From positions 1 to 63,053 of the forward strand of contig JAXHTV010000016.1 in the NCBI GenBank assembly GCA_034189865.1: a stretch of DNA of 63,053 bases, given 5' to 3'. The stretch comes from Pseudomonadota bacterium (GTDB taxonomy: Bacteria; Pseudomonadota; Gammaproteobacteria; UBA5335). The notes below the pieces were generated by a model. The model did no database searches and was not told the origin of the DNA. It saw nothing but the letters and a program-made list of their open reading frames with translations. The number at the start of each line of letters is the position of its first letter. Position 1 is the stretch's first letter. Below are positions 2,321-58,833 of the stretch, one piece after another. A program made the position numbers and the translations under genes.

Positions 2321-5300
2321 ATGACAACGTTTGTTAGAACCCGACGCACCATCGTCTTTCTATGCGCCTGTGTCGTGAGCTTTATGGCGGGTTTTCCCGC
2401 CTATGCAGACGACACGGAAATTTACGTCACACCCCAGGCGGACACCTCAGCCCCGAATATCCTGTTTATTGTCGACACCTCCGGGAGCATGGGAACGGAA
2501 GAGCAAATGGATTCCGCACCCTTCGATTCCGCTACCATTTACGATGGTGCCTGCGATGTGAATCGAATCTATTGGAGCACATCGGGAAACCCGCCCAGTG
2601 CCTGTGACGGTTCCAACGCCACTGACAACTGGTTTCCCGTGGCGGCTAACACCTGCGATGCGGCCACCGGATCGCTATCGACCACCGGGCAGTACATCGC
2701 TCAAGCCACCCAATGGCGCAAAAAGAAAACCAGCAGTGGCAACAGTTCCTGGCGCTGGCGCTCCCCCAATGATGATTTTCACGGGAACGACAACTATTTC
2801 GAGTGCTTGGCGGACGCCGGCGTCCATGGTCAGGATAGCGCCTCGTCCCGACGGTATACCAATCGTGCCGCCAGCGGCAGCGGTGCAGATCCGTGGACCA
2901 CGGGTTCCACCGTTCAGGTCACGAAGTGGAAACCCATCACGCTCTATTCCGGAAACTATCTGAACTGGTATCTGTACCACAGCAGCGCCGCCACCATGAC
3001 GCGGCTAGAGATCGTTCAAGATATCGCCAAAAACCTGATCGCCAGCTTGAACGGTGTCAATATCGGGTTGATGCGTTTCGACGATGATTACTGGAGTGAC
3101 TACTCTGGGAACCGGGGCGGCTACGTCACCCTTCCAGTTGCCGACATTGCCGCCAACCGCAGCGCCTTCAACACCAGCATTGACTCCTTTACCGACCAGG
3201 GCTCGACCCCCCTGTCCGAAACGCTGTATGAAGCCGCCCGCTATTTCCGCGGAGAAGCGCCGCACTTCGGCCTGTACACCTCGCCGGGAACCAGCGTAGC
3301 CTCCAGCCTGGATGCCGATGGTAAGTACATATCCCCCATCATCGATGTATGCCAAAAGAACAATATCGTCTACCTGACCGACGGTGAACCCCGAAGGGAC
3401 AATGATGCCAACAACGTGATCGAGTCTCTTATCGGCAGCACCTGCGGCGTCAATTCCGGTACGGGCGGCTCCAATGGCGGTCAATGCCTGGATGATCTGG
3501 CCCAGTGGCTACACGAAAACGACCAGGCGCAGGTTAACGAAACCGAGGACACAATCAACAACATTGTCACCTACACCGTTGGTTTTCACACCGACCAAAG
3601 CCTGCTCGACGACACCGCCGCCAAGGGTGGTGGCAAATACTACACGGCCGACACCTATGATGAACTCAACCAAGCGCTCACGTCGGTCTTTCTCGAGATC
3701 CTCTCCCGCAACGGACTATTTACCGCGCCGGCGGTCTCCGTGAATGCGTTCAACCGTCTGGAACACCGTGATGAGTTGTATTTCGCGCTGTTCCGCCCGG
3801 AAGATACCGTCCACTGGTTCGGGAATTTGAAACGGTATCGCTTCGATTCGGACTACGACGAGGATGGAGAAATCGTCGATCAGCTGGGTTTTCCCGCGGT
3901 CGACCCTAACACCGGAACGTTTAAATCCGGGGCGCGCAGCTTCTGGAGTTCGGATATCGACGGAGATGATGTCATCGCCGGCGGCATGGCCAACGAGTTG
4001 AGCCTGCCACGCAATGTATACACCTATTTCGGACCGGACAGTCCGGACAATGTTTCGTTGGCGTCCTATCCGCTCCACGAGTCCAATCTCGCGACGCTGG
4101 AACCGCTATTGGCGCTGGAAAACCAGGTGACGAATGCGACAAGCCTCATTCAATGGGCGCGCGGCGTCGACATTCTGGACGACGATGACGACGACAGCTT
4201 TATCGATGCAAGGCCGCGCATGGGTGACCTGCTCCATAGCCGGCCGCTGGTCGTCATCTATGGTGGTACCGAAGATGCACCCGACGCGACCGTATTCGCC
4301 ACCACCAACGAAGGTTACCTCCATGCGGTGGATACCAGCGACGGCAGCGAACAGTTCTCGTTTATCCCCAAAGAGCTACTGGCCAATCTGGAAGATTTGT
4401 ACGCTGACGATGATGGCGGAAAAGTCTATGGCTTGGACGGCCCGCTGAGCCTGTGGTTGGAGAATAACGGCTCAACGACCATCAACCCTGCTTTGGAGGG
4501 CGATTTCGTCAAGCTCTACTTCGGCATGCGTCGGGGGGGCAACAACTACTATGCGGTGGACGTCTCCGACCGCAGCAATCCGGTCCTTAAATGGGTGATT
4601 AAAGGCGGCGGAGACAGCGGTGATTTTTCGGAGATGGGCCAATCCTGGTCACGGGCGAGCAAGTCGAAGGTCCGCATCGGAACTCAAGTGCGCGACGTCC
4701 TGATGTTTACTGGCGGCTACGATGACTCCAACGATTCCGACACCACACGCACCGTGGACGGCGTGGGACGCGCCGTCTATATCGTGGATGCGGAAACCGG
4801 CGCATTGATCTGGTCCGGTGGCACCAGCGCCGAAGACAGCTCGGAAACGGACGACTTCACCGCTAAGTTCAACGATATGATCTATTCCATCCCATCGGAT
4901 CTGCGAATCGTCGATGCCAACGGGGATGGCTTGGCCGATATCTTGTTTGTCGGTGATATGGGCGGGCAACTGTGGCGTTTCGACATTGACAACGGCGCCA
5001 CCTCCGTGAGCGACCTGGTTACCGGCGGGGTCATTGCCGACATCGGCGGCGATGACGCGAACAATCGGCGCATTTATTACCCACCATCAGTGGCCTTCGC
5101 CAGGGACCAGGGCGACATCTTTCTCGCCGTTGCTTTCGGCTCTGGCTGGCGCGCACACCCCCTGGACCAAACCGTGGACGATCGCTTCTATATGCTGCGA
5201 CAGCTCTCGATTTACGGGCCGCCGCTGAACGAATCGGGGGACGTGAGTTACACCAAATACTCACACGACGACTTATATAACGCCACAGCCAACGTCATCG

Positions 5301-5737
5301 GCCAAGGCTCGGCAGAGGACGCGGACACCGCCTTGGCAACGCTCCGTGGCAGCGCCCATGGTTGGTATCTCGACCTGGAAAAGTCCGGCGAAAAATCCAT
5401 CTCCGATCCTTTGATCGCCAACGGCCAGGTCATGTTTTCCACCTACACCCCTACCCCGCCGGAAGGCGGAACCACCTGCTCATCGGGTTTGGGTTCGGGA
5501 TACTTCTATATCGTCAATTTGCTGGACGCGACGCCCACCCGGCCGCTGAATGGCGACGACGACAATCCGCTGGTCAAAGAAGACCGAGACATGCTGCTCA
5601 AGCGACCCGGCATTCCCGCCTCGCCGGTGGTGTATTTCCCGCCTGGTGGCAAGGTCAAGATTCTGGTCGGACCGGAGATCGTGCCCAGTCCGATCGAAAA
5701 TCCGTCCACCCGGACATCCTGGGTCGCCAACAAGTAG
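2321..5737 (+). CDS. pilY1: PilY1 family type IV pilus tip adhesin
   Basis: 1138 residues. A Sec signal peptide ends near residue 29 (AYA-DD). A von Willebrand A-like domain follows, with the MIDAS core DTSGSMG at 52-58 and a later TDGEP. The C-terminal half carries the PilY1 beta-propeller (MGDLLHSRP near 640, then repeated DVSD/AVDTSDG blades) and a Ca-loop DANGDGLAD near 865, matching the calcium site that controls pilus retraction in Pseudomonas PilY1. PilY1 works at the pilus tip with minor pilins in surface sensing, adhesion and twitching. Full length for the family. Start ATG 2321 is the only one giving the signal peptide. It is the second pilY1 here; 14-bp-stem hairpin follows the stop. 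Confidence 0.95.
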   Translation: MTTFVRTRRTIVFLCACVVSFMAGFPAYADDTEIYVTPQADTSAPNILFIVDTSGSMGTEEQMDSAPFDSATIYDGACDVNRIYWSTSGNPPSACDGSNATDNWFPVAANTCDAATGSLSTTGQYIAQATQWRKKKTSSGNSSWRWRSPNDDFHGNDNYFECLADAGVHGQDSASSRRYTNRAASGSGADPWTTGSTVQVTKWKPITLYSGNYLNWYLYHSSAATMTRLEIVQDIAKNLIASLNGVNIGLMRFDDDYWSDYSGNRGGYVTLPVADIAANRSAFNTSIDSFTDQGSTPLSETLYEAARYFRGEAPHFGLYTSPGTSVASSLDADGKYISPIIDVCQKNNIVYLTDGEPRRDNDANNVIESLIGSTCGVNSGTGGSNGGQCLDDLAQWLHENDQAQVNETEDTINNIVTYTVGFHTDQSLLDDTAAKGGGKYYTADTYDELNQALTSVFLEILSRNGLFTAPAVSVNAFNRLEHRDELYFALFRPEDTVHWFGNLKRYRFDSDYDEDGEIVDQLGFPAVDPNTGTFKSGARSFWSSDIDGDDVIAGGMANELSLPRNVYTYFGPDSPDNVSLASYPLHESNLATLEPLLALENQVTNATSLIQWARGVDILDDDDDDSFIDARPRMGDLLHSRPLVVIYGGTEDAPDATVFATTNEGYLHAVDTSDGSEQFSFIPKELLANLEDLYADDDGGKVYGLDGPLSLWLENNGSTTINPALEGDFVKLYFGMRRGGNNYYAVDVSDRSNPVLKWVIKGGGDSGDFSEMGQSWSRASKSKVRIGTQVRDVLMFTGGYDDSNDSDTTRTVDGVGRAVYIVDAETGALIWSGGTSAEDSSETDDFTAKFNDMIYSIPSDLRIVDANGDGLADILFVGDMGGQLWRFDIDNGATSVSDLVTGGVIADIGGDDANNRRIYYPPSVAFARDQGDIFLAVAFGSGWRAHPLDQTVDDRFYMLRQLSIYGPPLNESGDVSYTKYSHDDLYNATANVIGQGSAEDADTALATLRGSAHGWYLDLEKSGEKSISDPLIANGQVMFSTYTPTPPEGGTTCSSGLGSGYFYIVNLLDATPTRPLNGDDDNPLVKEDRDMLLKRPGIPASPVVYFPPGGKVKILVGPEIVPSPIENPSTRTSWVANK

Positions 5738-52715: not shown

Positions 52716-53075
52716 ATGACATACGCCTACAAATCTATTGCTCTGGCTCTCGGCCTGGCGCTTGCTCCCATGGCAGCCCACGCAGAATTGCAGCCGATGA
52801 AAGACAGCGCCCTGCGCGCCGTCAGCGGCCAAGCCATCAGTCAATACTTCTCGCTCACCGGCATCGACAACGCGACAGACGCGTGGTCGGCTCGGTTGCT
52901 GGAAAAAGCGGACAGTGCCAGATCGCTTGGGCTGATCCGTGTGGCCCATTTATTGACGAGAAAGGCCAATTATCTGAACTCGGTGGGCCAATGCAATCTA
53001 ACCCGAGTATGTGACCCACAATCCCGCCAAAGCGCTGGAGCGGGTGCCGGGCTGCGCCGAGGTGCACCCAACTAA
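52716..53075 (+). CDS. Small secreted protein with LxPMxDxxLxAVSGQ motif (copy A)
   Basis: 119 residues. Signal peptide ends near residue 23 (AAHA-EL). The mature protein starts with LQPMKDSALRAVSGQA, then TGIDNATD, and has a C-terminal GQCNLTRVC Cys pair (C-x5-C). After the second Cys it continues 19 residues (DPQ..., Ser/Ala/Gly/Arg-rich) that copy C lacks, so the end may be a stop-codon loss or frameshift. I do not recognise a characterised homolog. Gene order A-B-C on one strand; a 10-bp terminator hairpin follows. GTGGAGATTCCGAA is a weak ribosome site. Confidence 0.75.
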   Translation: MTYAYKSIALALGLALAPMAAHAELQPMKDSALRAVSGQAISQYFSLTGIDNATDAWSARLLEKADSARSLGLIRVAHLLTRKANYLNSVGQCNLTRVCDPQSRQSAGAGAGLRRGAPN

Positions 53076-53104
53076 ACACGCGCACATCACATCGCGGAAG
53101 CGCC

Positions 53105-53128
53105 GGGGGAGTCAACGCTGACTCCCCC
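53105..53128 (+). terminator. Hairpin after small secreted protein A
   Basis: GGGGGAGTCA, ACGC loop, TGACTCCCCC: perfect 10-bp stem followed by GTCTCGTTT. Separates copy A from copy B. Confidence 0.8.
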
Positions 53129-53157
53129 GTCTCGTTTATAGACCGATGGGTTCCCAG

Positions 53158-53178
53158 AATTGTGAAAAATTCACAATT
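53158..53178. promoter_or_regulatory. Perfect palindrome upstream of copy B
   Basis: AATTGTGAA, AAA, TTCACAATT: 9-bp perfect arms in an AT-rich patch, 94 bases before copy B. The TGTGA-N5-TCACA core resembles a CRP-family site but has 5 instead of 6 spacer bases. Likely operator for B (and perhaps C). Confidence 0.55.
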
Positions 53179-53271
53179 GCCACCTCCACGGCGACTCGGC
53201 ACACTTGAGGCGTCAAGCATCCCCGCGCCAAGAATTGATCCTCGAAAGTAATATTCTCCGGAGCCCGTCAA

Positions 53272-53619
53272 ATGAAAACATCATCGAAGACCTTGATGAT
53301 CATCGCCGCCACGATGATGGTACCGATGACTGCGGCTGGAAAATTGCAGCCGATGAACGACGCCGAGTTGCGGGCCGTAGCCGGGCAGGGTACATATATG
53401 GATGCGCTGCTGAGGCCAATCGACACGATGACGGACTCGATAGCCGTCGTAGTGGCCGAGCCAAGCCAACGCACCAATGATACCGGCACCTCAAGACTCG
53501 CGAATACGCTGGACCAGATGGGGGAAAGCCCGGATACGCCATCGACGGATCTGCCCCCTCTCCCTTCGTCCATCAAGGGACTACAAGGCCCGGTCATCTA
53601 TATCGACGTTCTCGGTTAG
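53272..53619 (+). CDS. Small secreted protein with LxPMxDxxLxAVxGQ motif (copy B)
   Basis: 115 residues. Signal peptide (MKTSSKTLMIIAATMMVP, cleavage near AAG-KL). Mature start LQPMNDAELRAVAGQG, then RPIDTMTDS in place of the TGxDxATD of A and C. The C-terminal half is Pro/Asp/Ser-rich, has no Cys and does not align with A or C, so this copy has either diverged or been joined to a different tail. A palindrome lies 94 bases upstream. Confidence 0.7.
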   Translation: MKTSSKTLMIIAATMMVPMTAAGKLQPMNDAELRAVAGQGTYMDALLRPIDTMTDSIAVVVAEPSQRTNDTGTSRLANTLDQMGESPDTPSTDLPPLPSSIKGLQGPVIYIDVLG

Positions 53620-53827
53620 TTTCAGCCGGTAAAGCCCATCATCATCGAACCCTATCGCCCGACCTGAGGCGAAAGGTGCTCTTTGTCCGCCACCCTTCGT
53701 TTTCGTAATCCAACCTGGGTTCACCAAAGCGAGATTGCGAACCTTCCACATGATTGCCAGACTTAATAGTGCTTGTCACGCTGTGGCGAGCGGTTGCTTA
53801 TTAGCAAAACCCTTAGGAGAAAATGAC

Positions 53828-54127
53828 ATGAAAAAACTGACTAGAGTCGTAACGTTAATGGCCGGCATGGGACTGGCGCCCTTGGCCGCCCATGCCGAAC
53901 TGGCACCCATGACCGACGCCGAACTACAGGCGGTATCCGGTCAAGGCGTCTATTTTCAAATGCTGCTGACGGGAGTCGATGACGCCACCGACAATCTGGC
54001 CGGAATCTTGGAAAACTGGGCCGACCAGGCGCAATATGAGCGCGTAGGAAACGCGTTCGGTGGCGCAGCGGCAATCTTGGATACCATCGGCGAGTGCAAC
54101 ATCCCTCGCCTGTGTGCCCCGAAATAG
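53828..54127 (+). CDS. Small secreted protein with LxPMxDxxLxAVSGQ motif (copy C)
   Basis: 99 residues. Signal peptide MKKLTRVVTLMAGMGLAPLAAHA, cleavage before EL. Mature start LAPMTDAELQAVSGQG, then TGVDDATDNLAG, ending GECNIPRLCAPK with a C-x5-C pair. CTTAGGAGAAAATGAC gives a good ribosome site for ATG 53828; the frame opens earlier at 53735 but the signal peptide fixes the start. The motif recalls the N-terminus of a DUF6160/FilA-like secreted group, from memory only. Confidence 0.78.
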   Translation: MKKLTRVVTLMAGMGLAPLAAHAELAPMTDAELQAVSGQGVYFQMLLTGVDDATDNLAGILENWADQAQYERVGNAFGGAAAILDTIGECNIPRLCAPK

Positions 54128-54222
54128 GAAATCTGCGAGACCAACTTTGCGCGTTCTTAACGTAAGGTTTCCGATAGAGAAACATACCCAGGAACGCGAT
54201 TGATCTCTTAAGGGGGGAATCA

Positions 54223-54250
54223 GGGGAGCCTTTTGGCTCCCCTTCTTTTT
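54223..54250 (+). terminator. Rho-independent terminator after copy C
   Basis: GGGGAGCC, TTTT, GGCTCCCC, then TTCTTTTT. Ends the A-B-C group. Confidence 0.9.
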
Positions 54251-55792: not shown

Positions 55793-56791
55793 TCAAACCG
55801 GCTGAGCCACCACGAGGGAGAAGTATCGATTGGTCGGCTCGGCATGATGCACAACAGACAACCCCGCACTTGTGAGCAAACTGGTCAGGGTTTGGGGGGT
55901 GAATTTCCGGCTGATTTCGGTTCGGAGCCGCTCCCCGGCATTAAACTGAATTTCCAGATCCAAGGCGCCAAAACGGACCGTCTGCGGCACATCACAAACC
56001 AGATACATTTCCACTTGGCCCCGCTCTGCAACGAATTGCGCGCGGTGACGGAAAGCATCCACGTCGAAATTCGCATCCAACTCCCGATTCAATACCCGCA
56101 GCACGTTGGTATTAAACTCGGCCGTCACCCCGGCTGCATCGTTGTAAGCGGCGTTGAGTACATCATGGTCCTTCACCCGATCGACGCCCAACAACAGCGT
56201 ATCACCGTCACGCATCAAGCCCCGCAGTTCCGTCAAAAATTCAACGGACTCGGACTCGGTGAAATTACCCAGCGTACCACCCAAAAAAACGAACAGCCGT
56301 CGACCCTCGATGGGCGGCAATCCGTCCAGGCCGGCGTGGTAATCCCCAACCAAAGGATTAACCGCCATCGCGGGATATTCCTGCCGCAGCGACTCGGCGA
56401 CGGAGACCAACAACGGCTCACAGACATCGAAGGGCCAATAGCTGACCCGGTGGCCTATCGCGGAGGCGGCATTGAACAAGTGCCGGGTTTTGCGGGCGGT
56501 TCCACTGCCCAACTCAACGATGTGATCCGGCTGAGCCAGACGAATGATGTCTTCCGCATCGGCCGCCAGCAAGGCGTCTTCGGTGCGAGTGGGGTAGTAC
56601 TCCGGCGTGTCGCAGATCCGGTCGAAAAGCTGAGATCCGCGTTCGTCGTAAAAATACTTGGGTGGAAGGGTGCGAGGCGGGTCACACAAGCCGGATTTCA
56701 CATCTTCTTCCAGCGTGGGGACCGCCCGGGAGGCCGGTACCACGTAGCACTGGATCGGGAGGGATTTTCTGATGGCCACACCCTTGTTCAC
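55793..56791 (-). CDS. egtD: L-histidine N-alpha-methyltransferase EgtD
   Basis: Trimethylates histidine to hercynine with SAM, first step of ergothioneine synthesis. 332 residues: PPRTLPPKYFYDERGSQLFD, TPEYYPTRTE, SAM motif VELGSGTARKTRHLF and GGTLGNFTESE. Divergent from egtC-egtB with 87 bases between, so the set shares a control region. Confidence 0.93.
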   Translation of the reverse strand: MNKGVAIRKSLPIQCYVVPASRAVPTLEEDVKSGLCDPPRTLPPKYFYDERGSQLFDRICDTPEYYPTRTEDALLAADAEDIIRLAQPDHIVELGSGTARKTRHLFNAASAIGHRVSYWPFDVCEPLLVSVAESLRQEYPAMAVNPLVGDYHAGLDGLPPIEGRRLFVFLGGTLGNFTESESVEFLTELRGLMRDGDTLLLGVDRVKDHDVLNAAYNDAAGVTAEFNTNVLRVLNRELDANFDVDAFRHRAQFVAERGQVEMYLVCDVPQTVRFGALDLEIQFNAGERLRTEISRKFTPQTLTSLLTSAGLSVVHHAEPTNRYFSLVVAQPV

Positions 56792-56878
56792 AGTCTCACT
56801 CCGCGTTGCGACAATGCCATGCTAGGCTAGCATCAAACCTTGACATGAACCATCGCACATACTGAAGGCAGCGGCATC

Positions 56879-57658
56879 GTGTGTCGAATCGCGGCTTACC
56901 TCGGCGAGGATGTGGATCTTGCCACCTTCCTGCTCCGTCCGCCTCATAGTCTGTATCGCCAATCGTGGGATGCGCGGGAGTTGACGGAGGCCCGCGTCAA
57001 TGCCGACGGTTTCGGCATCGGTTGGTACGCACCGGACCGCCAAGCGGCAACATACATCAACACCAGCCCCATCTGGAGCGATCCCAACCTCGACAGCCTC
57101 GGCCGAACCTTGTCCAGCGGATGCTGGTTAGGCAACGTCCGCAGTGCCACCCCGGGCTTGGGCGTCAGTTTAGCCAACACTCAGCCTTTTCATGGCGCTA
57201 ACTGGCTCTTCACCCACAACGGCTTCGTCGAAGACTTTGCCCAAGCGCTGCGACCACGGCTCAGCCGGGAGCTCGCCGACGACATCCACGCCGAAATCAA
57301 GGGCACGACCGACTCCGAATATCTGTTCGCACTGATCCGCCAGCGGATGCGGGAAAACCCCCATGCCGATCCGGCCGACGTAATGTTTCTCGCGGTCGAG
57401 GCGTTGGACCGTTGGATGGGGCAAAACCGCTGCCTATTGAATTGGATACTGACCGACGGCCAACGCGTGTTTGCGCTGCGCGATGCCGTCGGTGCCGAAG
57501 CGCCCAGCCTGTATTTTTGCACCGATAGCGAAACCACCCCCAACGGCCAATGGATCGCCTCGGAGCCGCTGGATGACAGTGAATTCTGGCGCCCCATTCC
57601 GCAAGGTGCCTTGCTGATACTCGACCATGACCAACCACCGGAGCTGCGAGCGCGATGA
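56879..57658 (+). CDS. egtC: Class II glutamine amidotransferase EgtC
   Basis: 259 residues. GTG start gives M-C-R-I with Cys2 as N-terminal nucleophile, then NADGFGIGWYAP and FTHNGFVEDFA. Removes the gamma-glutamyl group from the sulfoxide intermediate in the actinobacterial-type pathway. ATGA overlap with egtB. An EgtA or EgtE is not visible in the window. Confidence 0.9.
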   Translation: MCRIAAYLGEDVDLATFLLRPPHSLYRQSWDARELTEARVNADGFGIGWYAPDRQAATYINTSPIWSDPNLDSLGRTLSSGCWLGNVRSATPGLGVSLANTQPFHGANWLFTHNGFVEDFAQALRPRLSRELADDIHAEIKGTTDSEYLFALIRQRMRENPHADPADVMFLAVEALDRWMGQNRCLLNWILTDGQRVFALRDAVGAEAPSLYFCTDSETTPNGQWIASEPLDDSEFWRPIPQGALLILDHDQPPELRAR

Positions 57659-58833
57659 TCGGTCGGGCTGCAACCGCCCTCCAAGCCGGGGATCTGGACC
57701 GCTTTGCCGCGCTGCAGCGCCTCACCCTGACTCTGGCAGGACGATTGGACGACAAAAACGCGCGTATTCAACACCACAGCGAGCTCAGCCCCTTGGCCTG
57801 GCACCTCGGGCACACCGTCTGTGTGGAAGTTCACTGGCTGGCCGAGCAGGTTTGCGGTGAAAAGATCCTCTCGGAAACCGAGAATACGGTGTACTTCCCG
57901 GAGAATCTCACCAAGCCGCTACGCGCCGAGCGCCTCCCGCCCTTGGAGGCGCTACAGTTTTGGGCCGAACGACACCAAGCGGCCAACTTGGCGCGCTGGC
58001 AAACCGCCCCTGCCGATCATCCCCTGATGAAGGACGGCTACTTGCTGCATTTCCTCATCCAGCATTACGCCCAACATTTGGAGATCATGCACATGATCTT
58101 GCAGTGCGCGGCGCTGGCGGGGGCGAGCGGGAACGCAGTCGAAGCGCGCCCCCCCCTGATGGCCACCCGGCCGAGCAACCGCTGGGCCGCACACCCGGGC
58201 GGGCCTGTGCGCTGCGGCGACAGCGACAACCCGGCACCCTACGACAACGAACAACCGGCCACGGATACGGATCTAGCGCCGTTTTTGATTTCGCCGCATC
58301 CGGTCACCAATGGTGAATTTTTGGCGTTCATGGAGTCGGGCGGCTATGCAGATGATCGCTGGTGGGATGAGGCCGGGCTGCATTGGCGGGCGCAAAACCA
58401 GCCGGAACATCCGTTTCACTGGCGCCTTGGCCCGAACGGCTGGATCGCCGTCAGCGCCACGGGCCCGGAACCACTGCCGGCCCATGCGGCGGTCTACGGC
58501 GTCAACCGCTTCGAAGCGGCGGCCTACGCCCGTTGGGTTGGCGCCCGCCTGCCCCACGAGCACGAATGGGAAAGCGCCTTCCGAGCCGGGCTGATTCAGC
58601 GCACCGGCGAGGCCTGGGAGTGGTGCGACAATGCATTCTTTCCCTACCCCGGCTACCGTGCCTACCCCTACGAGGGCTACTCCAAACCGTGGTTCGACGG
58701 CGCGCATTTCACGCTCAAAGGCGGCAGTCCGTTTACCCAACCGGAAATCCACCGCCCCGGCTTTCGCAATTTCTACGGCGCCGACAAACGGCATATTTTC
58801 GCCGGGCTTCGGCTGGCCCGATCGGCAGTATAA
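57655..58833 (+). CDS. egtB: EgtB, nonheme iron sulfoxide synthase
   Basis: 392 residues. DinB-type N-terminal domain with iron ligands in AWHLGHTVCVE near 49-57 and HYAQHLE near 138; then an FGE-sulfatase domain (VYGVNRFEAAAYARW, RLPHEHEWE, GEAWEWCDNAF, FAGLRLAR). Oxygen-dependent C-S bond formation between hercynine and a thiol (gamma-Glu-Cys, judging from egtC next to it). Overlaps egtC by 4 bases. Confidence 0.9.
   Translation: MIGRAATALQAGDLDRFAALQRLTLTLAGRLDDKNARIQHHSELSPLAWHLGHTVCVEVHWLAEQVCGEKILSETENTVYFPENLTKPLRAERLPPLEALQFWAERHQAANLARWQTAPADHPLMKDGYLLHFLIQHYAQHLEIMHMILQCAALAGASGNAVEARPPLMATRPSNRWAAHPGGPVRCGDSDNPAPYDNEQPATDTDLAPFLISPHPVTNGEFLAFMESGGYADDRWWDEAGLHWRAQNQPEHPFHWRLGPNGWIAVSATGPEPLPAHAAVYGVNRFEAAAYARWVGARLPHEHEWESAFRAGLIQRTGEAWEWCDNAFFPYPGYRAYPYEGYSKPWFDGAHFTLKGGSPFTQPEIHRPGFRNFYGADKRHIFAGLRLARSAV

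Follow-up and report, generated by a model that had tools for sequence, protein, structure and literature searches.

What might an almost invariant stretch of residues be doing directly behind the signal peptides of three small proteins that otherwise have little in common? The question is raised by a window of 63,053 nucleotides that represents contig 16 in a draft genome of 2.9 Mb. The three tandem ORFs that an earlier note had described there, here called A, B, and C, were confirmed, with starts at 52716, 53272, and 53828 (Table 1). Each has its own signal peptide, followed by a near-identical block (ELQPMKDSALRAVSGQ in A, KLQPMNDAELRAVAGQ in B, and ELAPMTDAELQAVSGQ in C) of 16 residues with the pattern L-x-P-M-x-D-x-x-L-x-A-V-x-G-Q, and then by divergent cargo of approx. 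60-80 aa. The second element proposed in the note is also present (TGIDNATD, RPIDTMTD, and TGVDDATD in A, B, and C, respectively), and a cysteine-containing end motif is indeed common to A and C only (GQCNLTRVC and GECNIPRLC); with its length of 60-80 aa and its two cysteines, the cargo of these two proteins resembles small secreted peptides. Judged by eye, the signal peptides comprise 23 residues, end in AHA, AAG, and AHA, respectively, and are of the Sec type rather than the prepilin type in appearance. The limits of signal peptides and leaders were likewise set by eye, and the blocks of A and C were also parsed automatically. A GGAG- or AGGAG-like ribosome site precedes each gene.

Table 1. 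Features of the A-B-C locus and C39-related genes of the same genome.
Feature	Position	Strand	Remarks
Protein A	52716..53075	+	ORF; DUF6160 37.3 bits
A, signal peptide	52716-52784
A, block (candidate C39 leader)	52785-52832
A, cargo	52833-53072		two Cys
Terminator-like hairpin after A	53104..53129	+	consensus scan, 11 pairs
Palindrome upstream of B	53158..53178	.	perfect, 21 bp, AATTGTGAAAAATTCACAATT = AATTGTGAA-AAA-TTCACAATT, 9-bp arms
Protein B	53272..53619	+	ORF; DUF6160 22.8 bits (sub-cut-off); tblastn from C 3.4e-10
B, signal peptide	53272-53340
B, block	53341-53388
B, cargo	53389-53616		no Cys
Protein C	53828..54127	+	ORF, ATG 53828 within a longer TTG frame; DUF6160 30.3 bits
C, signal peptide	53828-53896
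C, block	53897-53944
C, cargo	53945-54124		two Cys
Terminator-like hairpin after C	54222..54243	+	consensus scan, 9 pairs; T-rich tail
filB	G000:C19:5705-6439		FilB-type C39 peptidase
filC	G000:C19:6488-7645		next gene after filB
Second C39 match	C37:8181-8552		under Pfam's cut-off

Being short and overlapped by long antisense frames, A-C could be taken for chance or non-coding frames. This explanation can be regarded as practically negligible in view of the Pfam matches, the occurrence of the same layout in approx. 17 paralogs, and the E-values between copies: when C was used as a tblastn query against its own genome, the match to A reached 2.6e-18 and that to B 3.4e-10. By these E-values and the Pfam DUF6160 scores, the resemblance among the three sequences exceeds chance. 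The suggestion that each copy is separately terminated held in part, i.e., terminator-like hairpins follow A and C, and the consensus scan, which found four sites compared with 2.2 in shuffles, gave none directly after B. The palindrome upstream of B is a possible regulator site. It has no second match genome-wide with up to three mismatches allowed; thus, being unique in the genome, it was rejected as a regulon-wide site.

A and C match Pfam family DUF6160 (PF19657) above its cut-off of 27 bits, of which B falls short, and in all three proteins the match spans the signal peptide and block only. The likeness to DUF6160 and FilA, which the earlier note had mentioned as vague, was correct; FilA-like proteins also carry the DUF6160 block. 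None of the three proteins matched the NCBIfam FilA model (NF050077), even with E values of up to 10 allowed, and the NCBIfam scan as a whole yielded nothing useful. A profile of the 17 paralogs found no convincing solved relative, and none of the phage records encodes a relative of C. Homologs, whose absence the note had held would speak against the motif, are plentiful within the genome, where approx. 17 proteins carry the block. DUF6160 matches occur at 17 places, in proteins of roughly 90-150 aa; a block of exactly 16 residues after the signal peptide was parsed automatically in 16 of them, and B fits by eye. Mean pairwise identity among these paralogs is 42% in the block (slightly low, because the leader of B was parsed too early), 13% in the cargo, and 10% in shuffled cargo. 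At the level of sequence, a conserved block joined to near-random cargo corresponds to a leader-cargo arrangement. Genomes of the same family have from 4 to 21 DUF6160 matches each, some in tandem.

The spacing within the block points to a particular class of leaders. Among 83 non-redundant relatives, position -12 is M, L, I, or V, -10 is mostly D or E, -8 is often E or A, -7 is L or M, -4 is mostly V, I, or T, and -2 is G in 98%; position -1 is Q in 90%, with R, E, G (2%), and T also found. The positions through which C39 peptidases recognize their leaders are Val-4, Leu-7, and Leu-12, with L(-12)xxxE(-8)L(-7) for ComA (PMC6363468). Thus, the block agrees position for position (-12, -7, -4, and -2) with the double-glycine leaders read by C39 domains, and A, B, and C all have hydrophobic residues at -12, -7, and -4 and Gly at -2. 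However, classical leaders end in Gly-Gly, Gly-Ala, or Gly-Ser, whereas the block of A-C ends in Gly-Gln.

One C39 peptidase, FapD, is known to bear a Sec signal, and the genome was therefore searched for an enzyme of this kind. A single strong C39 gene was found, which is of the FilB type (NCBIfam FilB 1.4e-62, FapD 1.1e-31, both under the curated cut-offs). The next gene encodes FilC (FilC 1.7e-83, FapF 4.3e-13, again both under the cut-offs). These two are the only fil genes noted at the locus, which lies on a different contig from A-B-C and is flanked by apparent pilMNOPQ and pilU/pilT genes, as judged by eye. The Cys, His, Asp, and Gln residues of FilB are retained in 88 of 88 relatives. 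Its AlphaFold model, built with eight sequences, is of moderate confidence (pLDDT 70, with segment 215-234 in the C-terminal tail under 50), and the modelled fold matches PCAT1, ComA, and leader-bound LahT150. FilC matches the FapF crystal structures by sequence at 7.8e-9, and the first 18 structure matches of its model (pLDDT 83) are all FapF chains. As in Fap systems, a stand-alone C39 peptidase thus adjoins a FapF-like channel, and FilB is the candidate cognate C39 peptidase for A-C.

A FilC-sized ORF directly follows filB in 77 of 80 named FilB loci, and motif ORFs lie within the examined flanks in 46 of the 80. Sixty of the 71 motif ORFs, a number that includes a few weak or overlapping frames, are upstream of filB on the same strand, and at 35 named loci motif genes end 1.5 kb or less upstream of it. 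Many beta- and gammaproteobacteria show this arrangement, with motif genes just upstream of filB. Runs of three or four motif ORFs are found in Massilia, Rugamonas, and Janthinobacterium, and some of these ORFs have a true double glycine (ALSAVRGGDG, ELSQVSGGDG); ORFs with a true Gly-Gly end occur at loci L166 and L177. In one genome, G015, a fil cluster is present in full, together with three DUF6160 proteins (L038). In Marinobacter and its allies, no DUF6160 gene adjoins filB, and DUF6160 is found elsewhere in the genome. This gap was rejected as counter-evidence, given that a whole-genome search found DUF6160 above the cut-off, away from filB, in all 19 further FilB genomes tested. Seventeen of these have no motif match near filB; the loci in the other two have one match (L132) and one weak, unrelated match (L168).

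FilB and DUF6160 are also present or absent together across several families. Among 229 genomes of the class, with DUF6160 accepted at E up to 1e-3, five have both and 224 have neither, with no discordant case; the five are also the genomes in which FilB scores over 200 bits and FilC over 190 bits, the next FilB score being 130, a gap noticed after the fact. For the order that includes G015 (294 genomes), the FilB limit of 1e-45 was fixed before the search. Both were found in 36 genomes and neither in 255 (Fisher 1e-42, a value that overstates independence because the genomes are related). The three discordant genomes (G312, G256, and G311) comprise one with FilB only (161 bits) and two with DUF6160 only, of which one is 75% complete and the other has a single weak match. 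The tests overlap a little, since genomes are shared between sets: among the 19 further genomes, G236 and G237 have their matches at the places seen in G003 and G001, and several of the 19 are also part of the order set. In the genomes searched, the block thus appears to be found almost only where a periplasmic C39 protease is encoded beside an amyloid-type outer-membrane channel.

Because of its double-glycine spacing and this near-exclusive co-occurrence with the protease and channel, the block probably marks cargo for a FilB/FilC exporter. The best explanation, which we consider likely, is that A-C would be exported by Sec, that periplasmic FilB would recognize and remove the block, and that the proteins would leave through FilC. 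The Sec signal peptide would direct the protein to the periplasm, with cleavage by signal peptidase I, and the new N-terminal 16 residues would then form a double-glycine-type recognition helix ending in Gly-Gln. FilB would bind this helix via positions -12, -7, and -4 and cut after Gly-Gln, and the variable cargo would, by analogy with Fap, exit through the FapF-like outer-membrane channel. The block would thus serve as an address label, and the dissimilar C-terminal parts as cargo. This pathway is based on the block and its spacing, the conservation of the block against the divergence of the cargo, the FilB active site, the predicted fold of FilC, gene linkage, and co-occurrence. Counting against it are the Gln at -1, the separation of the genes on different contigs, the kinship of the genomes, the three discordant cases, and the moderate FilB model. 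The earlier note took the motif for a recognition or assembly signal rather than a catalytic site; recognition and the non-catalytic nature stand, and a processing and secretion leader is a better reading than an assembly signal, because the conserved partners are the C39 peptidase FilB and the FapF-like FilC.

The same observations can be read in two other ways. The block might be a docking tag only, which FilB or the periplasmic coiled coil of FilC binds uncut, as a chaperone or channel opener. Some C39-like domains do bind without cutting (PMC5557850, PMC6173800), and the Gln found at -1 in 90% of relatives is not the usual small residue. However, the catalytic Cys, His, and Asp, together with the Gln, are kept in all 88 FilBs, unlike in degenerate C39-like domains, and the catalytic Cys of FapD is required for secretion (PMC5557850), which makes docking without cleavage rather unlikely. 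It is more improbable still that the block serves for retention in the periplasm, for self-assembly, or for a pilus or other route, and that FilB and FilC co-occur with it by shared ancestry. The motif genes are dispersed in the genome at a distance from filBC, and the position of filBC between apparent pilMNOPQ and pilU/pilT makes a type IV pilus tie conceivable; however, joint presence and absence in several families, the 35 loci at which motif genes closely precede filB, and the exact agreement with the spacing recognized by C39 peptidases speak against such a role.

This pathway would have relatives among known systems. Bacteriocin and RiPP leaders of the double-glycine type (PCAT/AMS transporters) have the same hydrophobic-anchor spacing, Gly at -2, leader/cargo layout, and a homologous C39 fold, but the C39 domain that cuts them is part of an ABC transporter, whereas in the present case the peptidase is a separate protein and the block lies behind a Sec-type signal. 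The Fap system of Pseudomonas, which secretes functional amyloid, has homologous peptidase and channel genes (FapD and FapF), adjacent in most loci, and FapE-type proteins beside FapD bear a block of the same spacing; here, in contrast, the FilB/FilC branch is concerned, and the clients are genome-scattered DUF6160 proteins with GQ-type blocks. The Fil operon of Acinetobacter and relatives (FilA-FilF) belongs to the same FilB/FilC branch and includes FilA-like proteins with a DUF6160 block, whereas A, B, and C lack an NCBIfam FilA match and are outside any operon with filBC. In the literature, this operon is a putative "type III pilus", and the word "pilus" in the names of the Fil proteins is a putative annotation, too. 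Among published systems, the closest precedent found is the Nap island of Neisseria, with the C39 peptidase NapP, the FapF homolog NapF, and GG peptides (PMC11798529). As compared by description, both systems combine a C39 peptidase and a relative of FapF with several small peptides that bear leaders; however, its motif is the classical GG and its clients lie within one island, unlike the scattered GQ clients here. Among the papers searched, mostly ones available without subscription, none was found that connects DUF6160 with recognition by C39 peptidases.

For Fap, Rouse et al. identified FapD as a C39 protease of the periplasm and noted that its target was unclear, that the Fap proteins were without canonical C39 sequences, and that FapE was the sole Fap protein with complete N-terminal processing (PMC5557850); according to a 2018 review, the FapD substrate had still to be identified (PMC6173800). 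Next to several FapD genes there are ORFs with a block of the same spacing that ends in RG[GKR][FY], and thus one recognition code may serve both the Fap and Fil branches. By proposing which sequence periplasmic C39 peptidases recognize, the present analysis makes the question of the FapD target testable. It also offers a likely function for DUF6160, which is found in many proteobacteria, including pseudomonads and Acinetobacter relatives, and recasts the "putative pilus" operon as a secretion pathway; the exported clients of a genome would be predictable from one short label. More tentatively, and with slightly less than even confidence, it can be proposed that FilB/FilC is a general proteobacterial two-leader pathway (Sec signal, double-glycine-like label, and FapF-like channel) with many dispersed, hypervariable clients per genome, in which FilB would be self-checked by an uncleavable C-terminal label ([LM]-x-[DE]-x-x-[LM]-x-x-[VI]-D-like) and the same code, in its RG[GKR] version, would single out FapE for FapD.

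Several minor observations were made along the way. In the 88-sequence alignment, a conserved stretch near the C-terminus of FilB, in its tail, is spaced like the client block (L-x-L-x-[DE]-x-[DE]-[LM]-like), with Asp or another residue at the position of the cut-site Gly and without Gly-Gln; it was seen in FilB of this genome and in the FilB ORFs of L100-L179. This tail could be a built-in pseudo-substrate, and the likeness may also be a chance match by a short amphipathic helix. One class genome (G054) has seven weak C39 matches in frames of 218-236 aa, some close together on one contig. In another genome (G018; L045, 2932-4256), tandem motif proteins share their cargo, with CxxxCPT-like cysteines and GGVTGALFG-x-x-G-D/N, and form a paralogous small-protein set of another kind. 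Within the window, a 1138-aa ORF at 2321-5737 has a weak PilY1 beta-propeller match, and filBC of the same genome also seemingly adjoins type IV pilus genes. Finally, the region at 55793-58833 of the window contains likely ergothioneine genes, namely a minus-strand Methyltransf_33 ORF (EgtD-like), a class II glutamine amidotransferase ORF (EgtC-like), and an FGE-sulfatase/DinB_2 ORF (EgtB-like).
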